DNA from: Sphingobacterium sp. lm-10 | GTDB lineage: Bacteria > Bacteroidota > Bacteroidia > Sphingobacteriales > Sphingobacteriaceae | Direction: 5' to 3' | Assembly (NCBI RefSeq): GCF_023554555.1 | Contig: NZ_JAMJWC010000002.1 | Location: 496,001-560,000 of the forward strand | DNA length: 64,000 nt | Shown: positions 14,893 through 58,579 of the stretch, one piece after another | How positions within the stretch are numbered: the first letter of the stretch is position 1 | Layout: each line of letters begins with the position of its first letter | The notes under the pieces: generated by a model | Seen by the model: only the letters and a program-made list of their open reading frames with translations | What the model was told of the DNA's origin: nothing | The model's database searches: none | Position numbers and translations under genes: made by a program

Positions 14893-15216
14893 CTACAACT
14901 TTCCTACCATCTGATAGACTTCCATCATATAACTGGCTTCTTCGAGAGATAGGATGAAATTCGCCCAATCAGAGAAGGTGAATGTTAATGCCAGCTCAGG
15001 GAGTGGTGTTGGCAGCATCATGCGCACGACGCCATCTGGACAGGTAAAGAATTTTTCTCTTCCCTTATAATCGTATACGCTTTGCACAAAGCTTTGGAAA
15101 TGTCCAGCATCAAAGGACAATAAAGACGAATCCTGCCAAATGTAATGTGCTTTGCATTGATCGCAATAAGTGATGGATGTTTGCCCGTTGGCGCTGAGCA
15201 ATCTGGATTGACACAT
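14893..15216 (-). CDS. Small conserved protein with N-terminal CxxC (DUF6686-like)
   Basis: A 107-residue cytosolic protein of unknown function that I associate with the Bacteroidota DUF6686 group, from memory only. An N-terminal cysteine pattern (C2, then CDQC at 18-21, later C59) suggests a small zinc site. The rest is mixed alpha/beta with no catalytic motif I recognise. It has the best-formed promoter in the window just upstream, overlapped by an A/T-rich palindrome, so it is probably its own regulated transcription unit. Confidence 0.72.
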   Translation of the reverse strand: MCQSRLLSANGQTSITYCDQCKAHYIWQDSSLLSFDAGHFQSFVQSVYDYKGREKFFTCPDGVVRMMLPTPLPELALTFTFSDWANFILSLEEASYMMEVYQMVGKL

Positions 15217-15217
15217 A

Positions 15218-15250
15218 TTATTTATATTTATTTAGATCAAATATAAATAA
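15218..15250. promoter_or_regulatory. A/T-rich palindrome across promoter and leader
   Basis: Perfect 12-bp arms TTATTTATATTT (15218-15229) and AAATATAAATAA (15239-15250) around a 9-nt spacer. One arm contains most of the -7 box of the minus-strand gene and the other reaches 1 nt from its ATG. It could be an operator or a leader hairpin hiding the start codon. Confidence 0.55.
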
Positions 15251-15268
15251 GAATATTGCTTTGTCAAA
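15238..15268 (-). promoter_or_regulatory. Consensus Bacteroidota promoter for the 107-residue protein gene
   Basis: On the minus strand, TTTG (15268-15265), a 19-nt spacer and TATATTTG (15245-15238) match both boxes and the spacing of the Bacteroidota housekeeping promoter. The box ends 21 nt before the ATG at 15216. The -33 box lies inside the left copy of the 48-bp repeat. Confidence 0.68.
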
Positions 15269-15311
15269 ATATTTTCCACCAAGGTTTGGTAATACCTACA
15301 TACCAGGTGCC
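15264..15311. repeat. Left 48-bp direct repeat (relic of Rieske gene 3' end)
   Basis: Matches 16778-16825 at 47 of 48 positions. Read on the minus strand it encodes the last 15 residues (GTWYVGITKPWWKIF) and the stop codon of the Rieske protein; the one difference is synonymous. Similarity stops abruptly at 15312. Confidence 0.95.
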
Positions 15312-16777
15312 GAATACTCCGTCTAAATATTTTATTAGCAGTTAATTTTATCCCAAAAAATATAAAATACTTGATTTTGGAAATTTTCGCTAAAGTTATT
15401 ATCAGCATAGTTGGAGTGATGCTTTAATAGTCAGTTTTTTTTTCAACCTTTGAACATTGATATTCGTAACTGGCCATGAAAATTACAATTCTGACTCCTG
15501 ATATCCCATATCCTTTACACATGGGGGGCAATGTTGCTCAATTTGCTTTCTCAGATTATTTGAGGCATAAAATATCTATTACCTATATTTTCGAAATTTT
15601 TAATCAAGATGACGAGAAATCTGCGAATGAATTACAAGAGCTATGGGATAATGTAAAGATTATTAGAGTGTATAATGATCAATATCATCTTTCGAAACCA
15701 CTGACAATTCTGGAGAGAATTTTTCGAAAAATTAGTGTGGTAGCGAGTCGTTTAAGTGGTGCAAGGATGTACGAAAGTCTGCCAGGTAAATCCAACCCCA
15801 TTTTTAGCAATGCTTTATGGTACGTAAAACCCTTTTCTGAAGGTTTTATAACTGCTATTTTAGAACACATTTCGGTAGATAGCCCTGATCTAATTCAGGT
15901 TGAGCACTCTAGAGGATTATGCCTTGCTGATTTGGAGACGGGCGATATCCCAAAAGTATTTATTCACCATGAAGTTCAATTTGGGATGTTAGAGTCGTTA
16001 GGAAAATATGATGCTATAAATGTTTTCTCAAGGTACACGATAGACCTTACGAAGAATATTGAGTGCAATCTTTTACGGAAATTTCACTCTATTTTAACGT
16101 TTAGTGAAAATGACAAACAGAAATTGATAGCTGAAGGGTTGGAGAATGTAGAATCGATACCTTTTCCCATCCTTTCTAGTGAATTTGGGAGGAAAAAGAA
16201 ATGTATAAACATTGACAAATTATTATTTGTTGGTGGAGATTGGCATTACCCGAATTATGATGCAGTATCTTGGTATGCTTCAGAATTAGGAGAAGATATT
16301 TATAATAATTTTGGCTTAAAACTTCATGTCGTAGGTCGGTGGAGAAAGCAAAATATCGACTATCTTAAAAGTGACTTTGTGATTTTTGAAGGGTTCGTAA
16401 AAGATCTCAATGAGTTTGGAATCCATGCTATTCATATTCTTCCTATACGTATGGGGGGAGGTATACGAACAAAACTTCTAAGTGCGATTGCAAACTTCCA
16501 GCCAATTATAACGACTGTAATAGGAGCAGATGGTATAAGCGTAGAAGATGGGAAACATGTTTACTTTGCGGATTCTAAAATTCAATTCATTGATGCAATT
16601 TCAAAAATTTTGAAAGATCAAACGCAGTCATTAACTATGTGCAACAATGCATTCGAATTTTTGCGTGAGACATTTGATCAAGAAAAATTAGCCAATAGAA
16701 GGCTGCAGTTGTATAAGAAGCTACTATTTACAAAAGAATAATTGCCAAGACAATACTTTTGTTGTTAGATCATTTCA
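15312..16777. mobile_element. Putative 1.5-kb genomic islet carrying one glycosyltransferase gene
   Basis: The DNA between the two 48-bp repeats is visibly richer in A and T than its surroundings and carries a single gene. The duplicated gene end on its far side is what remains when an element inserts at the 3' end of a gene and restores it. No integrase, transposase or terminal inverted repeats are present, so the mechanism is unknown; homologous exchange is an alternative. Boundaries are set by the repeats. Confidence 0.55.
15476..16741 (+). CDS. Glycosyltransferase, GT4-like
   Basis: A 421-residue cytosolic glycosyltransferase of the GT-B fold. The N-terminal domain begins MKITILTPDIPYPLHMGGN with the usual glycine-rich acceptor loop. 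The C-terminal donor-binding domain starts near residue 240 (LLFVGGDWHYPNYDA) and includes the segment ILPIRMGGGIRTKLLSAIA, typical of GT4 enzymes that bind nucleotide sugars. The substrate is not predictable. It stands alone, with no other polysaccharide genes nearby, and its A/T-rich codon use differs from its neighbours. Together with the flanking repeats this suggests recent acquisition. Confidence 0.85.
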   Translation: MKITILTPDIPYPLHMGGNVAQFAFSDYLRHKISITYIFEIFNQDDEKSANELQELWDNVKIIRVYNDQYHLSKPLTILERIFRKISVVASRLSGARMYESLPGKSNPIFSNALWYVKPFSEGFITAILEHISVDSPDLIQVEHSRGLCLADLETGDIPKVFIHHEVQFGMLESLGKYDAINVFSRYTIDLTKNIECNLLRKFHSILTFSENDKQKLIAEGLENVESIPFPILSSEFGRKKKCINIDKLLFVGGDWHYPNYDAVSWYASELGEDIYNNFGLKLHVVGRWRKQNIDYLKSDFVIFEGFVKDLNEFGIHAIHILPIRMGGGIRTKLLSAIANFQPIITTVIGADGISVEDGKHVYFADSKIQFIDAISKILKDQTQSLTMCNNAFEFLRETFDQEKLANRRLQLYKKLLFTKE

Positions 16778-16825
16778 TCAAAATATTTTCCACCAAGGTT
16801 TGGTAATGCCTACATACCAGGTGCC
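16778..16825. repeat. Right 48-bp direct repeat (3' end of intact Rieske gene)
   Basis: This copy forms the last 16 codons, including the stop, of the intact Rieske gene. It differs from 15264-15311 at one position (G here, A in the left copy). Confidence 0.95.
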
Positions 16826-17095
16826 ATTTTCTTCCTTTACAGGATAGGTGTTGATGTAGTTTCCTTGCCCTGGATTTCCTCGTCCCGTCTGGATGTCAAA
16901 CCCATGGCGGTGAAACGGACAAATCAATTTGCCGCCTTCGCACCAGCCTTGAGATAGGTCAGCACCGGCATGAGGGCATTTGGCACTAGTAATATGGGGT
17001 GTACCCGATTGGTAGATAATACAAAGTTTCTTGCCATCTACCTGTATCTCTGATACACCTTCTTTTTTTGGGAGTTTAAATTCGTGCCATATCAT
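16778..17095 (-). CDS. Rieske [2Fe-2S] ferredoxin-like protein
   Basis: Small soluble electron carrier of the Rieske type, 105 residues. The cluster ligands are C40 and H42 (CPHAG) and C59 and H62 (CPFHRHGF), with 16 residues between the motifs. The start at 17095 (MIWHEFKLPK) is preferred; an in-frame ATG at 17122 adds nine residues of no family likeness. There is no signal peptide or oxygenase domain, so it is a ferredoxin component whose partner is unknown. Its last 48 bp are duplicated beyond the neighbouring glycosyltransferase gene. Confidence 0.9.
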   Translation of the reverse strand: MIWHEFKLPKKEGVSEIQVDGKKLCIIYQSGTPHITSAKCPHAGADLSQGWCEGGKLICPFHRHGFDIQTGRGNPGQGNYINTYPVKEENGTWYVGITKPWWKIF

Positions 17096-17176
17096 ATATA
17101 AAGATGAACAAATTGTAGGCATAATCGTTGCATATAAATGCAGATTGGCACAGAGTTAGATCTCGCATCTATTGAT

Positions 17177-52795: not shown

Positions 52796-53257
52796 ATGAA
52801 AAAAGTATGGATTTATCAGGCTAACCGGTTCTTTACCTTAGCCGAAGAAGCACAAGCACTTTCTGTTTTGCAACAATTCGTCCAAAGCTGGACCGCACAT
52901 GGCGATCAGCTGGCAGGCACTGCCAAAATTTATCACCATCTTTTTATTGTATTAGAAGTCGATGAATCCGTCGCCAATGTAACCGGATGTTCGGTAGATA
53001 AGTCCGTTCACCTATTAAAACGGTTAGAGCAAGAACTGAATATTGGCTTGTTTGACCGACTGATGGTGGCGTACCGCGATGCAGCGGGTACTGTACAGTT
53101 AGTATCACGTAGTAATTTTGCGCAGCTAGTCAAAGATGGTCAGGTATCATCAGACACGATTGTATTCAACAATCTGTTGGCTTCTGGCGAAGCGTTTCCA
53201 ACTCAATGGGAATTGCCCTTTAAAGAAAGCTGGCACGCTCAGGCTTTTGTAATATAA
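52796..53257 (+). CDS. Conserved protein of unknown function (often mislabelled ABC transporter ATPase)
   Basis: A 153-residue soluble protein found, by recollection, across Bacteroidota and frequently labelled as an ABC transporter ATPase. No Walker A, Walker B or signature motif is present here, so that name is unsupported. The recognisable core is GCSVDKSVHLLKRLEQELNIGLFDRLMVAYRD. It ends AQAFVI. The last 16 bases of the gene are repeated at 58563, beyond the SusC/SusD pair. Confidence 0.8.
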   Translation: MKKVWIYQANRFFTLAEEAQALSVLQQFVQSWTAHGDQLAGTAKIYHHLFIVLEVDESVANVTGCSVDKSVHLLKRLEQELNIGLFDRLMVAYRDAAGTVQLVSRSNFAQLVKDGQVSSDTIVFNNLLASGEAFPTQWELPFKESWHAQAFVI

Positions 53258-53258
53258 T
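53242..53258. repeat. Left 17-bp direct repeat at gene 3' end
   Basis: GGCTTTTGTAATATAAT, covering the end of the upstream gene and its stop codon, is identical to 58563-58579. Confidence 0.8.
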
Positions 53259-53418: not shown

Positions 53419-56400
53419 ATGTCTGTCATTGAAATTTGTAGATATTTCCATGTCGTACAAACCAGAACCCTACAATGTTTATTTTCTTATGGGCTTATCA
53501 TTTTTGCCCTTTTGCTTGGAAATCCATCGTTCGCATTAACAAGAAATCCAATCCCTTATTTAGATGTTGGCACTACATCAGCACAAACAACTCTTTCAGG
53601 TATCGTAAAGGATAGTAGAGGAAATCCGATACAAGGCGTTACAGTACAAGAAAAAGGTCGTCAAAACTCAACGACCACGGACGAAGAGGGTCAATTTTCT
53701 TTACGTGTTACCACAGGTAATGCGGTGCTTGTGTTTTCCAGCATGGGTTACATCGTAGTAGAGCTACCAGCCAATCAAGTTGCTGAAGTACGCTTAGAGG
53801 ACGATCAAAGTGAACTGGAGGAAGTAGTGGTAGTAGGCTATGGTACACAGAAGCGCAGTAATGTTACCGCAGCAGTGACGCAGGTAGACACCCGTGTGTT
53901 GCGAGATCGGCCAGCACCTACCGTGACGAATATGTTGCAGGGTGCTGCACCAGGGTTAACCCTAAACCGTTCTTCCGGGCGTCCAGGAGCACAAGGCCTA
54001 CAGATGCAAATACGAGGGGCCGCATCAGCGAACGGTGCATCGCCTCCACTGATTGTAATTGATGGAGTCATCAGTAGCGAACAAGCTTTCACGGCAATTA
54101 ATCCCTCAGATATAGCTAATATTTCATTACTTAAAGATGGCGCAGCCGCAGCAATCTATGGTGCGCAGTCAGGTGGTGGCGTGCTGCTGATTACGACTAA
54201 ACGAGGGGAGCCCGGTAAGCCGCGGATATCTGTATCTAGTAATATGGCTTTCCAGCGACCCGGCAACATCCCTGGGCGTCTTTCGCTAATTGATGAGATG
54301 AATTACGTAAATCTCGCGCGAGCGAATGCCGGCCTACCGCCAGAATATCAGGCCATTGATTTAGAACGCGCCTTAGGCAATCAAGTTTTCTATGTGGGGC
54401 CTAACAACCAGTGGGAAACCTATAATCAAGAAGATTTGATCTCCACTATTGTTCGTAATTCCTACCCTCTATTTACCAATAATGCTTCGGTATCCGGAGG
54501 GTCTGAAGACGTCCAATATTTGATGTCTGTTGGCAATATGACTCAAAGCGGTATGTTTAAGGTGGGTGATGATCGCTATAGTCGGTGGAATGCGCGCGCC
54601 AATTTTTCGGCTAGAATCAATCCTTATCTGAAGTTGGATCTACAAAATGCGTATATCAACGAAGCGATCGACAATCCCAGTACCGGTGAGTTCGCTATTG
54701 ATGAAGGAGGAAATTCAATTTTACGACAGTTTTATTCATCTCGTATGCGTTTCCCGCTTTATAATCCCGACGGTACATATTACGCTAATGGCACATCTTC
54801 CACCTTTGGGTATGCCTTGTTAAGGGATGGAGGATACGATCAAGATCGTATCGCCACGTATACGAACAACGTGACGGCTACGATCGATAACCTGTTGGAA
54901 GGTTTTAAGGTACGCTTGATGTATAGCCGAGAGCAGCGCAATTTTCAAAAAGATTTATTTAGACGTACCGTGACTTATTTTTCTGGTCCAGATATGGGTA
55001 ACCAAAGCTGGCAGAACAGACCTAACAACTTTAGTATTGATAATCAGTCGCAATTGATTCAGAATTATCAGGCGATTGCAGATTATTCCAAAACCTTTGC
55101 AGATAAGCACGATTTTGGGGTGATGGCAGGTTACCAATTCCTCGATCAAACCTTCAATCACGTTGTAGCGGAATCCAACAATCTATTTGTAAACGATAAC
55201 CCTAGTTTAAACTTTGTTGATAATCCGATCAACAGAACAAATAACCAGCAACAGTTTGCCTCGGCTATGCAGTCTTATTTCGGACGGATAAACTATGCCT
55301 TTGCGGAGAAATATTTGTTGGAAGCTACTGTGCGCATCGATGAGAGCTCCCGTCTTAGCCCTGCCAACCGAACAAATACATTCCCAGGAATCTCTGCGGG
55401 ATGGAATGTGATGAAAGAGGATTGGAGTGCAGGAATAGGTGCATTTTTTCAGGAGCTAAAGCCAAGGGTATCATGGGGTAGGGCAGGCCTACAAGAAGGT
55501 ATTGGGTATTTCGATTTTATCACGCAACTCGGTATGATGTCTGATTTGTTGCTCAACAACCAGCAGCAAGCCTATCTCCAACAGCGAACACTACCTGGCA
55601 GGTCTATGGGTTGGGAAGTAATCGAAACCAGAAATATAGGTGTCGACTTTTCCGTATTAAATCGAAAGATACGCGGCTCATTCGATTATTTCCATAAAAA
55701 TAACAACAACATGTTGGTGCCGCTGACTTTGCCCGGAACCATTGGGCTAGGCATCCCTTTTTCTAATGATGGAAGACTGCAAACACGGGGTTGGGAGGCT
55801 GAATTAGTATATAGCGATCGCTTTTGGGACAAACTGGATGTGAGAATTGGAGCAAACATGACGGACAATACCAATACCTTGGTGCAATACGCGGGAATCA
55901 ATGACGTGGTAAATCTGGGGGTCAATAGTCTCATAGAAGGTTACGCGCTAAATTCGGTATGGGGTTACCGTACTGATGGCTTTTTCCAAAACCAACAAGA
56001 GGTGGCGAATGCACCTAGTTATCAGCGCGTCCTCAATAGGGCGGACGTTCCTAGTATGGGCGATTTACGGTATGTAGATATCAATGGAGATGGAGAGATT
56101 TCTCCGGGAACCAATCGACTAAGCGACTTAGGAGATATGGTACATTTCGGTGATCTAAATCCACGTTATCAATTCGGATTTAATCTGTACGTGGGGTATA
56201 AAAACTTTGATTTTAGTGCGTTCATCCAAGGTACAGGTATGCAGATGATTCTTCCAGGCAATGAATTTATTCAGCCCCAAATGTTTCCTTGGTATCAGCC
56301 GATGAACTTTCATGCAGACTATTGGACACCAGAAAATCGGAATGCCTATTTTCCAAGACCCTTCACAGGTGGCAATCACAACTTTGTAAGTTCAGACCGG

Positions 56401-56676
56401 TGGATTTTAAATGCAGCTTATGCTCGGCTGAAAAACATTCAGATAGGCTATACGCTAAACCGGCAAGAGATACCCAAACTGCCGTTTCAACGTATGCGTG
56501 TATTTTTCTCGGGAGAAGATTTGCTAACCGTTTCTCGTCTACCAAGGGCTTTTCGAGGTGTTATTGATCCAGAAATGGATACACGGCCTACGAACGCGGC
56601 GGCAGGTACCGTCAACCGACAGTCGCCCTATCCTTTTGCCACCACCTTATCATTCGGACTAAACATTGACTTCTAA
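53419..56676 (+). CDS. SusC/RagA family TonB-linked outer membrane protein
   Basis: TonB-dependent outer-membrane transporter of the SusC family, 1085 residues. It has a signal peptide (about 24-41), a CarboxypepD-regulatory-like domain (about 55-130, LSGIVKDSRGNPIQGVTVQEKG), the plug domain (from ELEEVVVVGYGTQKRSNVT, with QIRGAASANGASPPLIVIDGV) and the C-terminal 22-strand barrel ending in an aromatic residue. There is no extra N-terminal STN domain, so it is not a sigma/anti-sigma type transducer. It works with the SusD lipoprotein 13 nt downstream. No glycoside hydrolases lie adjacent; the substrate is unknown. Confidence 0.95.
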   Translation: MSVIEICRYFHVVQTRTLQCLFSYGLIIFALLLGNPSFALTRNPIPYLDVGTTSAQTTLSGIVKDSRGNPIQGVTVQEKGRQNSTTTDEEGQFSLRVTTGNAVLVFSSMGYIVVELPANQVAEVRLEDDQSELEEVVVVGYGTQKRSNVTAAVTQVDTRVLRDRPAPTVTNMLQGAAPGLTLNRSSGRPGAQGLQMQIRGAASANGASPPLIVIDGVISSEQAFTAINPSDIANISLLKDGAAAAIYGAQSGGGVLLITTKRGEPGKPRISVSSNMAFQRPGNIPGRLSLIDEMNYVNLARANAGLPPEYQAIDLERALGNQVFYVGPNNQWETYNQEDLISTIVRNSYPLFTNNASVSGGSEDVQYLMSVGNMTQSGMFKVGDDRYSRWNARANFSARINPYLKLDLQNAYINEAIDNPSTGEFAIDEGGNSILRQFYSSRMRFPLYNPDGTYYANGTSSTFGYALLRDGGYDQDRIATYTNNVTATIDNLLEGFKVRLMYSREQRNFQKDLFRRTVTYFSGPDMGNQSWQNRPNNFSIDNQSQLIQNYQAIADYSKTFADKHDFGVMAGYQFLDQTFNHVVAESNNLFVNDNPSLNFVDNPINRTNNQQQFASAMQSYFGRINYAFAEKYLLEATVRIDESSRLSPANRTNTFPGISAGWNVMKEDWSAGIGAFFQELKPRVSWGRAGLQEGIGYFDFITQLGMMSDLLLNNQQQAYLQQRTLPGRSMGWEVIETRNIGVDFSVLNRKIRGSFDYFHKNNNNMLVPLTLPGTIGLGIPFSNDGRLQTRGWEAELVYSDRFWDKLDVRIGANMTDNTNTLVQYAGINDVVNLGVNSLIEGYALNSVWGYRTDGFFQNQQEVANAPSYQRVLNRADVPSMGDLRYVDINGDGEISPGTNRLSDLGDMVHFGDLNPRYQFGFNLYVGYKNFDFSAFIQGTGMQMILPGNEFIQPQMFPWYQPMNFHADYWTPENRNAYFPRPFTGGNHNFVSSDRWILNAAYARLKNIQIGYTLNRQEIPKLPFQRMRVFFSGEDLLTVSRLPRAFRGVIDPEMDTRPTNAAAGTVNRQSPYPFATTLSFGLNIDF

Positions 56677-56688
56677 GCTCACATCATC

Positions 56689-58434
56689 ATGAAAAAAATT
56701 ATTTTTAATATCAGCATATTGTTTTTAGGCCTCTCGATGTCGCTGTCGTGCAGTGTCGATCGGATGCCAGAAGCTACTTTGACAGACCAATTCTTTTGGG
56801 AGACGCCCGAAAACTTAAGGCTTGCAGCGAATTTCTTTTATACAGGATTACCTGGTTTGTCTTCAGAAGATGTGACTCAGGATAACTGGTCATCAGATGG
56901 ATTCCCTATTTCGGGGAATAATACCATTAGCGACGGGTCTCGGGTAGCACCCGCGCAGGACACCCTCAACTACAGGCGGAATTATTACAATATCTATCAG
57001 GCCAATAAGTTGATAGAAATGGCGCCTCAAGTCATCTCCAGAGGTGGTAGTGAGACTTTAGTCAATAGCTACGTAGGGGAAGCACGTTTCTTTCGGGCTT
57101 TGTTTTATTTTGACATGTTTTGCCGTTACGGCGGTGTTCCGCTGATAGATCGCACGGTGGATGAAGACGACCCAGCGATATTCCTGGCAAGATCAAGTCG
57201 TGAAGAGCTGATTAATTTTATCTATGCAGATCTGGATTATGCTATTCAACATCTACGCACTATTGACGAACTAACTGCCGCTCAGGAATACGGTCGTATT
57301 TCTGTTTCTGGAGCATTGGCTTTTAAGTCTCGTGTAGCGCTTTTTGAAGGCACGCGTGCAAAATTCCACGGCTATGGAGACTACCGCCGTCACTTAACTC
57401 TTGCCGCCGACGCTGCACGTCAAGTGATAGAATCTGGAGCGCATAGTCTGTTTAGTCAACCAAGTAGCGGGGCGAATGGACAGCGGTTAAACCCGGCTTA
57501 CTATAACTTGTTTCAGCTAGTAGGAAATGGTCTTAACAACAGAGAAAATATTATTATCAGGGGCTATGGTGCAAGCTTAGAGAATCTGGTTTCATGGCAC
57601 ATCGCACAGCGTTATTATGAGGGCTTGCAGATTGTCGCCACCCAAAACTTTGTGAATAACTACTTGATGGCCGACGGACTGCCTATAGGTAAATCACCTA
57701 TGTACCGCGCTCCGAATGAACAAATGACCCATGCTCAATACTTTGAAGGGAAAGATCCCCGTATGAGTTTTACTTTTTTCAAACGTGGCGACGCCTTTAT
57801 CGCCTCCGGACCGTTCGTATTGCCACACCCTAATAATCAACGTAGCGGATTTGCTATTCGAAAATATGCTGATCCTCAGGCTTGGGCATTCCAGCGTTCG
57901 GTTATTGATAGACCCGTCTTACGCTATGCCGAGGTACTGTTAAACTACGCCGAAGCCAAATTTGAACTAGAGGAAGCCATTGCCGATGCTGATCTGGATC
58001 AGACTATAAATGCGCTTCGCGCCAGACTACCTCAAATTAATACAGGCACTGCGGTAGCACCAAACTATACCGATCTCCCCAAATTGAGCAATGCTTTTGT
58101 GGGTGCACATTCGCTAAGTATGCGAGAGGAAATTCGAAGAGAACGCCGGGTAGAACTCGCTTTTGAGATGCTCGGTTACTGGGATTTTATCCGCTGGAAA
58201 ACAGCAGAGGTAGAATTTCCAAAGGCGCTGGTAGGGAGTTACTTTTTTACGGAGTACCGTACTGCCCCTCAGCCCTGGAACCCTCAAAACACTGTGGTTG
58301 ACCAAAATAATCATATTGTGCTACAGCCGAGTAGTGTGCGAAACTTTAATCCCGAACGAGATTACTTATGGCCGTTGCCTTTAGATGAGCTAGCCAACAA
58401 CCCAGGAGTCATTCAGCAAAATCCAAACTGGTAA
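56689..58434 (+). CDS. SusD/RagB family nutrient-binding lipoprotein
   Basis: Surface lipoprotein that caps the SusC barrel and binds its substrate, 581 residues. Signal ends MSLSC with lipidated Cys21. SusD/RagB features are the N-terminal TPR-like helices (GEARFFRALFYFDMFCRYGGVPL near residue 125), LRYAEVLLNYAEAKFE, and RRERRVELAFEMLGYWDFIRW near the C-terminus. It ends QQNPNW. A clear terminator follows, so the pair is one transcription unit. Confidence 0.95.
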   Translation: MKKIIFNISILFLGLSMSLSCSVDRMPEATLTDQFFWETPENLRLAANFFYTGLPGLSSEDVTQDNWSSDGFPISGNNTISDGSRVAPAQDTLNYRRNYYNIYQANKLIEMAPQVISRGGSETLVNSYVGEARFFRALFYFDMFCRYGGVPLIDRTVDEDDPAIFLARSSREELINFIYADLDYAIQHLRTIDELTAAQEYGRISVSGALAFKSRVALFEGTRAKFHGYGDYRRHLTLAADAARQVIESGAHSLFSQPSSGANGQRLNPAYYNLFQLVGNGLNNRENIIIRGYGASLENLVSWHIAQRYYEGLQIVATQNFVNNYLMADGLPIGKSPMYRAPNEQMTHAQYFEGKDPRMSFTFFKRGDAFIASGPFVLPHPNNQRSGFAIRKYADPQAWAFQRSVIDRPVLRYAEVLLNYAEAKFELEEAIADADLDQTINALRARLPQINTGTAVAPNYTDLPKLSNAFVGAHSLSMREEIRRERRVELAFEMLGYWDFIRWKTAEVEFPKALVGSYFFTEYRTAPQPWNPQNTVVDQNNHIVLQPSSVRNFNPERDYLWPLPLDELANNPGVIQQNPNW

Positions 58435-58536: not shown

Positions 58537-58578
58537 CTATTTTATGAGCGCCAATATACCGCGGCTTTTGTAATATAA
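58537..58578 (+). pseudogene. In-frame relic resembling the end of the 153-residue protein gene
   Basis: The frame ends LFYERQYTAAFVI-stop. Compared without gaps to the end of the 52796-53257 product (PFKESWHAQAFVI-stop), 6 of 13 residues agree, and the last 17 bp around the stop are identical. This is a candidate displaced 3' end, or a fortuitous match. Confidence 0.45.
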
Positions 58579-58579
58579 T
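58563..58579. repeat. Right 17-bp direct repeat beyond susD
   Basis: GGCTTTTGTAATATAAT, identical to 53242-53258, lies 129 nt after the SusD stop and 74 nt before the S10 peptidase. Confidence 0.8.

Follow-up and report, generated by a model that had tools for sequence, protein, structure and literature searches.

A recent insertion carrying a lone glycosyltransferase gene between duplicated ends of a Rieske gene in Sphingobacterium, and comparable islets at other gene ends

The Rieske islet of Sphingobacterium sp. lm-10, a lone glycosyltransferase gene lying between two copies of the 3′ end of a Rieske gene, stems from a recent insertion of foreign DNA that is specific to its lineage. Our leading account of it, to which we give a probability of roughly 0.45, is the capture of a foreign fragment at a chromosomal break with duplication of the target. 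Many bacterial accessory genes stand alone without an integrase or transposase and their arrival usually goes unexplained; here exact edges, an empty site, a young duplication and sister events in the same clade make the entry mechanism testable. The interest of the Rieske islet lies in the recurrence of its layout across unrelated gene ends, from which we tentatively propose that foreign cargo repeatedly enters the 3′ ends of genes in this clade without an element-encoded recombinase, leaving duplications that vary from 17 to ~93 bp.

Results

Anatomy of the Rieske islet

The window (the whole 64,000-nucleotide stretch of DNA that was analysed) belongs to a genome of 3.84 Mb in five contigs. 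Read along the plus strand, it presents a peptidase-like gene, the 107-aa gene, the outer repeat R2, the insert with its glycosyltransferase gene, and the inner repeat R1, the genuine 3′ end of the Rieske gene (table 1). The earlier note on this DNA had reported that the final 48 bp of the Rieske gene reappear beyond a lone A/T-rich glycosyltransferase gene, and this is upheld: R1 and R2, spaced 1514 nt apart, are identical at 47 of their 48 nt, the sole mismatch being a GGT/GGC pair that is synonymous for glycine in the Rieske frame, and the GC content is 33.9% in the insert versus 42.5% across 730 kb of the chromosome. Third-position GC is 30% in the glycosyltransferase gene and 39-49% in neighboring genes. 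The only Pfam domain in the glycosyltransferase is the C-terminal Glyco_trans_1_4 (PF13692, 45.5 bits, cut-off 27), and the product of the 107-aa gene has no match in Pfam or NCBIfam.

Table 1. Coordinates of the Rieske islet, its neighbors and the comparable islets (positions are those of the window unless a genome code is given; G000 is the lm-10 genome and G170 that of S. corticibacter)
Feature	Position	Strand	Details
Large peptidase-like gene, 717 aa	12666..14819	-	Downstream of the 107-aa gene; part of the conserved neighborhood
107-aa gene, ancestral downstream neighbor of Rieske	14893..15216	-	ORF; 75% identity in G208/G170, directly after Rieske
Bacteroidota-type promoter of the 107-aa gene, TTTG-N19-TATATTTG	15238..15268	-	TTTG (-33) inside the repeat
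Repeat R2, outer copy	15264..15311	-	Second Rieske 3′ end; continues into native downstream sequence and the 107-aa gene promoter
Inserted segment, 1466 bp, 33.9% GC	15312..16777		Absent between contiguous flanks in G208 and G170
Glycosyltransferase gene, 421 aa, lone (Glyco_trans_1_4)	15476..16741	+	ORF; Pfam PF13692 E=1.2e-11
Repeat R1, inner copy	16778..16825	-	Native Rieske gene end, last 15 codons and stop; aligned to the empty site of G208/G170
Rieske [2Fe-2S] protein gene, 114 aa, intact	16778..17122	-	ORF; Pfam PF00355 E=1.1e-12
SusC/SusD islet, inner repeat	53242..53258	+	17 bp exact; 3′ end of the 153-aa gene and stop (GGCTTTTGTAATATAAT)
SusC/SusD islet cargo	53419..58434	+	SusC-like 53419-56676; SusD-like 56689-58434
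SusC/SusD islet, outer repeat	58563..58579	+	17 bp exact
mfd islet, S. corticibacter	G170:C2:215338-219945 (L293 11939-19999)		4.6 kb, ~93-bp repeat
LytTR islet, own genome	G000:C2:396547-398754 (L138 6520-8850)		2.2 kb, diverged 61-bp copies of a LytTR regulator gene end
Fourth other islet, own genome	G000:C2:735170-739382		4.2 kb, diverged ~42-bp duplication

The repeat is not a product of chance. Its edge-to-edge score is 45, compared with scores of at most 12 for 2999 of 3000 random edge pairs from the same chromosome and 16 for the remaining pair. A census of the repeat core in 94 Sphingobacterium genomes, tolerating up to 3 mismatches, found it twice in the lm-10 genome, once each in S. 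chungjuense IMCC25678 (G208) and S. corticibacter 2c-3 (G170), and nowhere else; the possibility that R1 and R2 belong to a dispersed element was ruled out by there being only two copies in their own genome. No recombinase ORF was detected in the insert (15312-16777), and neither inverted repeats at its edges nor a transposase was found. Both the anatomy and the ORF list agree with the previous description of the locus as having the layout of a 3′-end integration that restores its target gene, with no recombinase.

The repeat also bridges the two native neighbors. In the promoter of the 107-aa gene the −33 box had been placed within the repeat, and there it is: its TTTG falls at the end of the Rieske TTT-TGA, overlapping the stop codon, and the same TTTG, 19-bp spacer and TATATTTG are present in G208 and G170. 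Because the duplicated 48 bp span both the Rieske stop and this box, both neighbors would be preserved, whereas an insertion just after the stop would be expected to detach the −33 box and one before the stop to truncate the Rieske gene. Gene ends may tolerate insertions in this way, a duplication across the stop and an overlapping promoter leaving both neighbors working.

The empty site and the age of the duplication

Searching 94 genomes of the genus, one per species, we identified as close relatives by Rieske identity G208 (86%), G170 (85%) and Sphingobacterium sp. CFCC 11742 (G339; 78%). In G208 and G170, the two closest species, 49 bp separate the Rieske stop from the 107-aa gene that comes next, within a neighborhood that is syntenic throughout, and the site holds a single repeat copy and no intervening glycosyltransferase gene. 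This is the ancestral empty site that the earlier note had predicted from the lm-10 sequence, including a spacer that it had put at 47 bp. The 107-aa gene is missing from G339, where the Rieske gene adjoins the peptidase gene at a distance of ~95 bp (L108 9361-9456), and more distant species have different neighbors at the Rieske locus. None of the three relatives has a match to the glycosyltransferase at E<=1e-12. Neither finding that the earlier note had named as counting against its reading was made: none of the relatives has the glycosyltransferase gene in this position, and the repeat is no dispersed element.

The repeat copies of G208 and G170 are identical to each other and differ from R1 at 6 of 48 positions and from R2 at 5, compared with 1 of 48 between R1 and R2; at this sole variant position R2 carries T, the base of both relatives. 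Since R1 and R2 each have their nearest match in the other, not in the relatives' copy, either the duplication postdates the split from G208 and G170 or the donor was conspecific.

Source of the inserted gene

The nearest full-length relative of the glycosyltransferase in the genus (31%) lies within a polysaccharide export cluster of another Sphingobacterium genome (G235), and the inserted gene probably came from a polysaccharide cluster. A search for a donor among 84,980 species genomes using exact peptide patterns of the glycosyltransferase returned none. At the DNA level, matches to the islet in the 93 other Sphingobacterium genomes were confined to short stretches inside genes, about 30-47 bp long, no phage, plasmid or viral sequence matched it, and no viral contig contained the repeat core. 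Neither a second gene-end copy nor other cargo was found near Rieske genes in 69 named loci and two dozen loci of the genus. With no second genome carrying the islet or alternative cargo, and no DNA kin in phages, plasmids or the 93 genomes, the suggestion that the islet is itself mobile is not borne out. The whole lm-10 genome encodes three tyrosine recombinases, two of them Xer-sized (336 and 311 aa) and one of 423 aa. PADLOC assigned neither the glycosyltransferase nor four other cargo proteins to any known defence family.

Comparable islets at other gene ends

We aligned 730 kb of the lm-10 chromosome to 780 kb from G208 (80% identity), and compared 400 kb from G170 with each of them; within the lm-10 genome itself the scan took in 730 kb of contig 2 plus 60 kb of contig 1. 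At several insertions besides the Rieske islet the flanks overlap instead of abutting, which denotes a target duplication. Five such cases, including Rieske, occur among about 14 tight-edged insertions of >500 bp in the three genomes (table 1). One of them, the 5.3-kb SusC/SusD islet at the end of a 153-aa gene, lies in the same window, and its site is empty in G208 and G170. The repeat of the mfd islet spans the mfd end and a terminator-like hairpin that precedes the convergent neighbor, and its cargo comprises three genes, one for an outer-membrane beta-barrel and two small ones. The two mfd copies are mosaic, with 0 differences over 52 bp followed by 8 over 46 bp (Fisher p=0.0017), and both encode a valid Mfd C-terminus. 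A 63% homologue of this beta-barrel gene in genome G029 has internal stops and a different neighborhood. In the LytTR islet, the cargo is a MACPF gene with short ORF fragments, and the outer copy of the gene end differs from G170 at 6 of 61 positions and from the inner copy at 15 of 61.

The edge-repeat scores of the SusC/SusD (17) and mfd (52) islets exceed the random-pair maximum of 16; the more diverged duplications of the LytTR islet (~61 bp) and of the islet at 735 kb (~42 bp) are probable rather than certain cases. A screen of 2547 genes for stop-anchored repeats returned Rieske, mfd, the 153-aa gene and one low-complexity match, and the corresponding screen of gene starts returned one repeat common to two neighboring genes and one locus-specific repeat. 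A 72-bp near-exact direct repeat of palindromic appearance, with ~270 bp between its copies, was observed in G208 near the position corresponding to C2:677456 of lm-10.

The earlier note had proposed a class of integrase-less islets. Its layout does recur at different genes, but the repeats at Rieske, the 153-aa gene, mfd and the LytTR gene differ in length (17 to ~93 bp) and show no sequence relationship, which is unlike one element family with one attachment site. Because the repeats are unrelated and no recombinase was found among the cargo of the other islets, as in the Rieske insert, a single integrase cannot explain all of them, and we favor recombinase-independent insertion across the islets overall. 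Similar recombinase-free insertions within one clade hint at a common insertion route.

Discussion

How the insertion may have formed

Under our leading account, a staggered break at the 3′ end of the Rieske gene would have captured a 1466-bp foreign fragment, the overhangs being filled in and then joined so that 48 bp of target were duplicated; a template-switch event would be an equivalent alternative. Such a process would read no fixed target sequence, and the survivors that we see would be those in which the duplication spans a gene end and both neighbors remain functional. Copies made in this way should be the same at birth and specific to the lineage, and R1 and R2 are such a pair; being sister copies, they make the Rieske islet fit an in-place duplication. 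The genome contains convergent ku and ligD-like genes (L225 6491-9792), with Ku identified at E=2.2e-46 and an 823-aa LigD-like ligase recognized by reading the sequence. Together these would form an apparently complete bacterial end-joining pair that may have supplied the joining machinery. The stagger of 48 nt is long, which argues against break capture.

Other islets point elsewhere. The mfd and LytTR copies look like incoming alleles of the gene end, for which integration at shared sequence is a better fit than in-place fill-in. It is conceivable, though rather unlikely, that the Rieske islet too arose by homology-targeted integration, in which the circular or linear DNA of a near relative, bearing its own Rieske 3′ end beside the glycosyltransferase gene, recombined with the resident gene end by a Campbell-type single crossover or by homology-facilitated illegitimate recombination and left two copies. 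Exactly this layout would result, the mosaic mfd copies with their two valid C-termini are what is expected of two alleles recombined in their identical part, and the copies at the LytTR islet are likewise allele-like. Homology-facilitated illegitimate recombination is documented in three competent species and in Escherichia coli conjugation (PMC3240628). Both Rieske copies, however, belong to the local type, which would require a conspecific donor; the donor arrangement, a Rieske end beside the glycosyltransferase, was not found in the 94 Sphingobacterium genomes, one per species; and the identity cores at the SusC/SusD (17 bp) and LytTR (13 bp) islets are short for RecA.

We consider it unlikely that the islet is a cis-mobilizable remnant, that is, an element with a tyrosine integrase that inserted at an attB in the Rieske 3′ end and then lost the genes for its integrase and transfer, so that attL, cargo and attR remain. 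Elements of this kind typically integrate at the 3′ ends of protein genes and restore them (SGI1 in trmE, MGIs in yicC, IMESag in rpsI), CIMEs are defined as decayed forms in which nothing but the att sites is retained (PMC5704250), and the stop codon does lie within the Rieske repeat. The 1466 bp nevertheless hold no integrase or integrase remnant, no second gene-end copy is present at the examined Rieske loci, where the lone integrase match is 5 kb away on the opposite side (L172), and the unrelated repeats at other genes would require several different lost integrases. Least probable by far is an ancestral islet that the relatives lost through recombination between its repeats. Direct repeats often give rise to deletions, and a deletion here would give the same empty site, but this scenario leaves the gene-end duplication unexplained, requires losses in G208/G170 and in G339, and is disfavored by the mutual closeness of R1 and R2, which makes the duplication younger than the split.

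If foreign cargo does repeatedly enter without an element-encoded recombinase, then insertion at 3′ ends is a general route for lone surface genes such as those encoding the glycosyltransferase, SusC/SusD, beta-barrel and MACPF proteins, and acquisitions of this kind would be missed by island finders that rely on integrases. The points open to testing are bacterial end joining and short shared gene ends as importers of foreign genes.

Comparison with known systems

As in transposon insertions, direct repeats of the target flank the Rieske insert; unlike them, it has no transposase and no inverted repeats at its edges. Typical transposon target duplications are far shorter than 48 bp. Ku/LigD end joining can capture ectopic DNA, and it resembles the proposed process in joining ends independently of sequence and in having both genes present in the genome; we know of no work establishing target duplications of 17-93 bp as one of its signatures. 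Ku and LigD genes have been surveyed across bacteria (PMC7719229).

The closest anatomical parallel is with CIMEs and decayed IMEs at the 3′ ends of protein-coding genes, in which cargo is flanked by direct repeats, the target gene being completed by one of them, and integrase and transfer genes are lacking (PMC5704250). The Rieske islet has the gene-restoring repeats of an attL/attR pair. It differs in being just 1.5 kb long with no known parent element, and the islets of the same layout in the clade use unrelated targets and repeat lengths. Neither an integrase or its remnant nor an integrase-bearing relative at the same attB, as would mark a CIME, was found in the insert or the examined Rieske loci. 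Judged from its sequence, the outcome appears island-like, with the gene restored and cargo added, and in anatomy the islet resembles a CIME. In homology-facilitated illegitimate recombination, foreign DNA joins the chromosome through homology at one of its ends and by an illegitimate event at the other (PMC3240628). This could leave a duplicated gene end; the Rieske islet differs in that no donor was found in the 94 genomes and both copies are of the local allele type. It is the closest documented process that operates without a mobile element.
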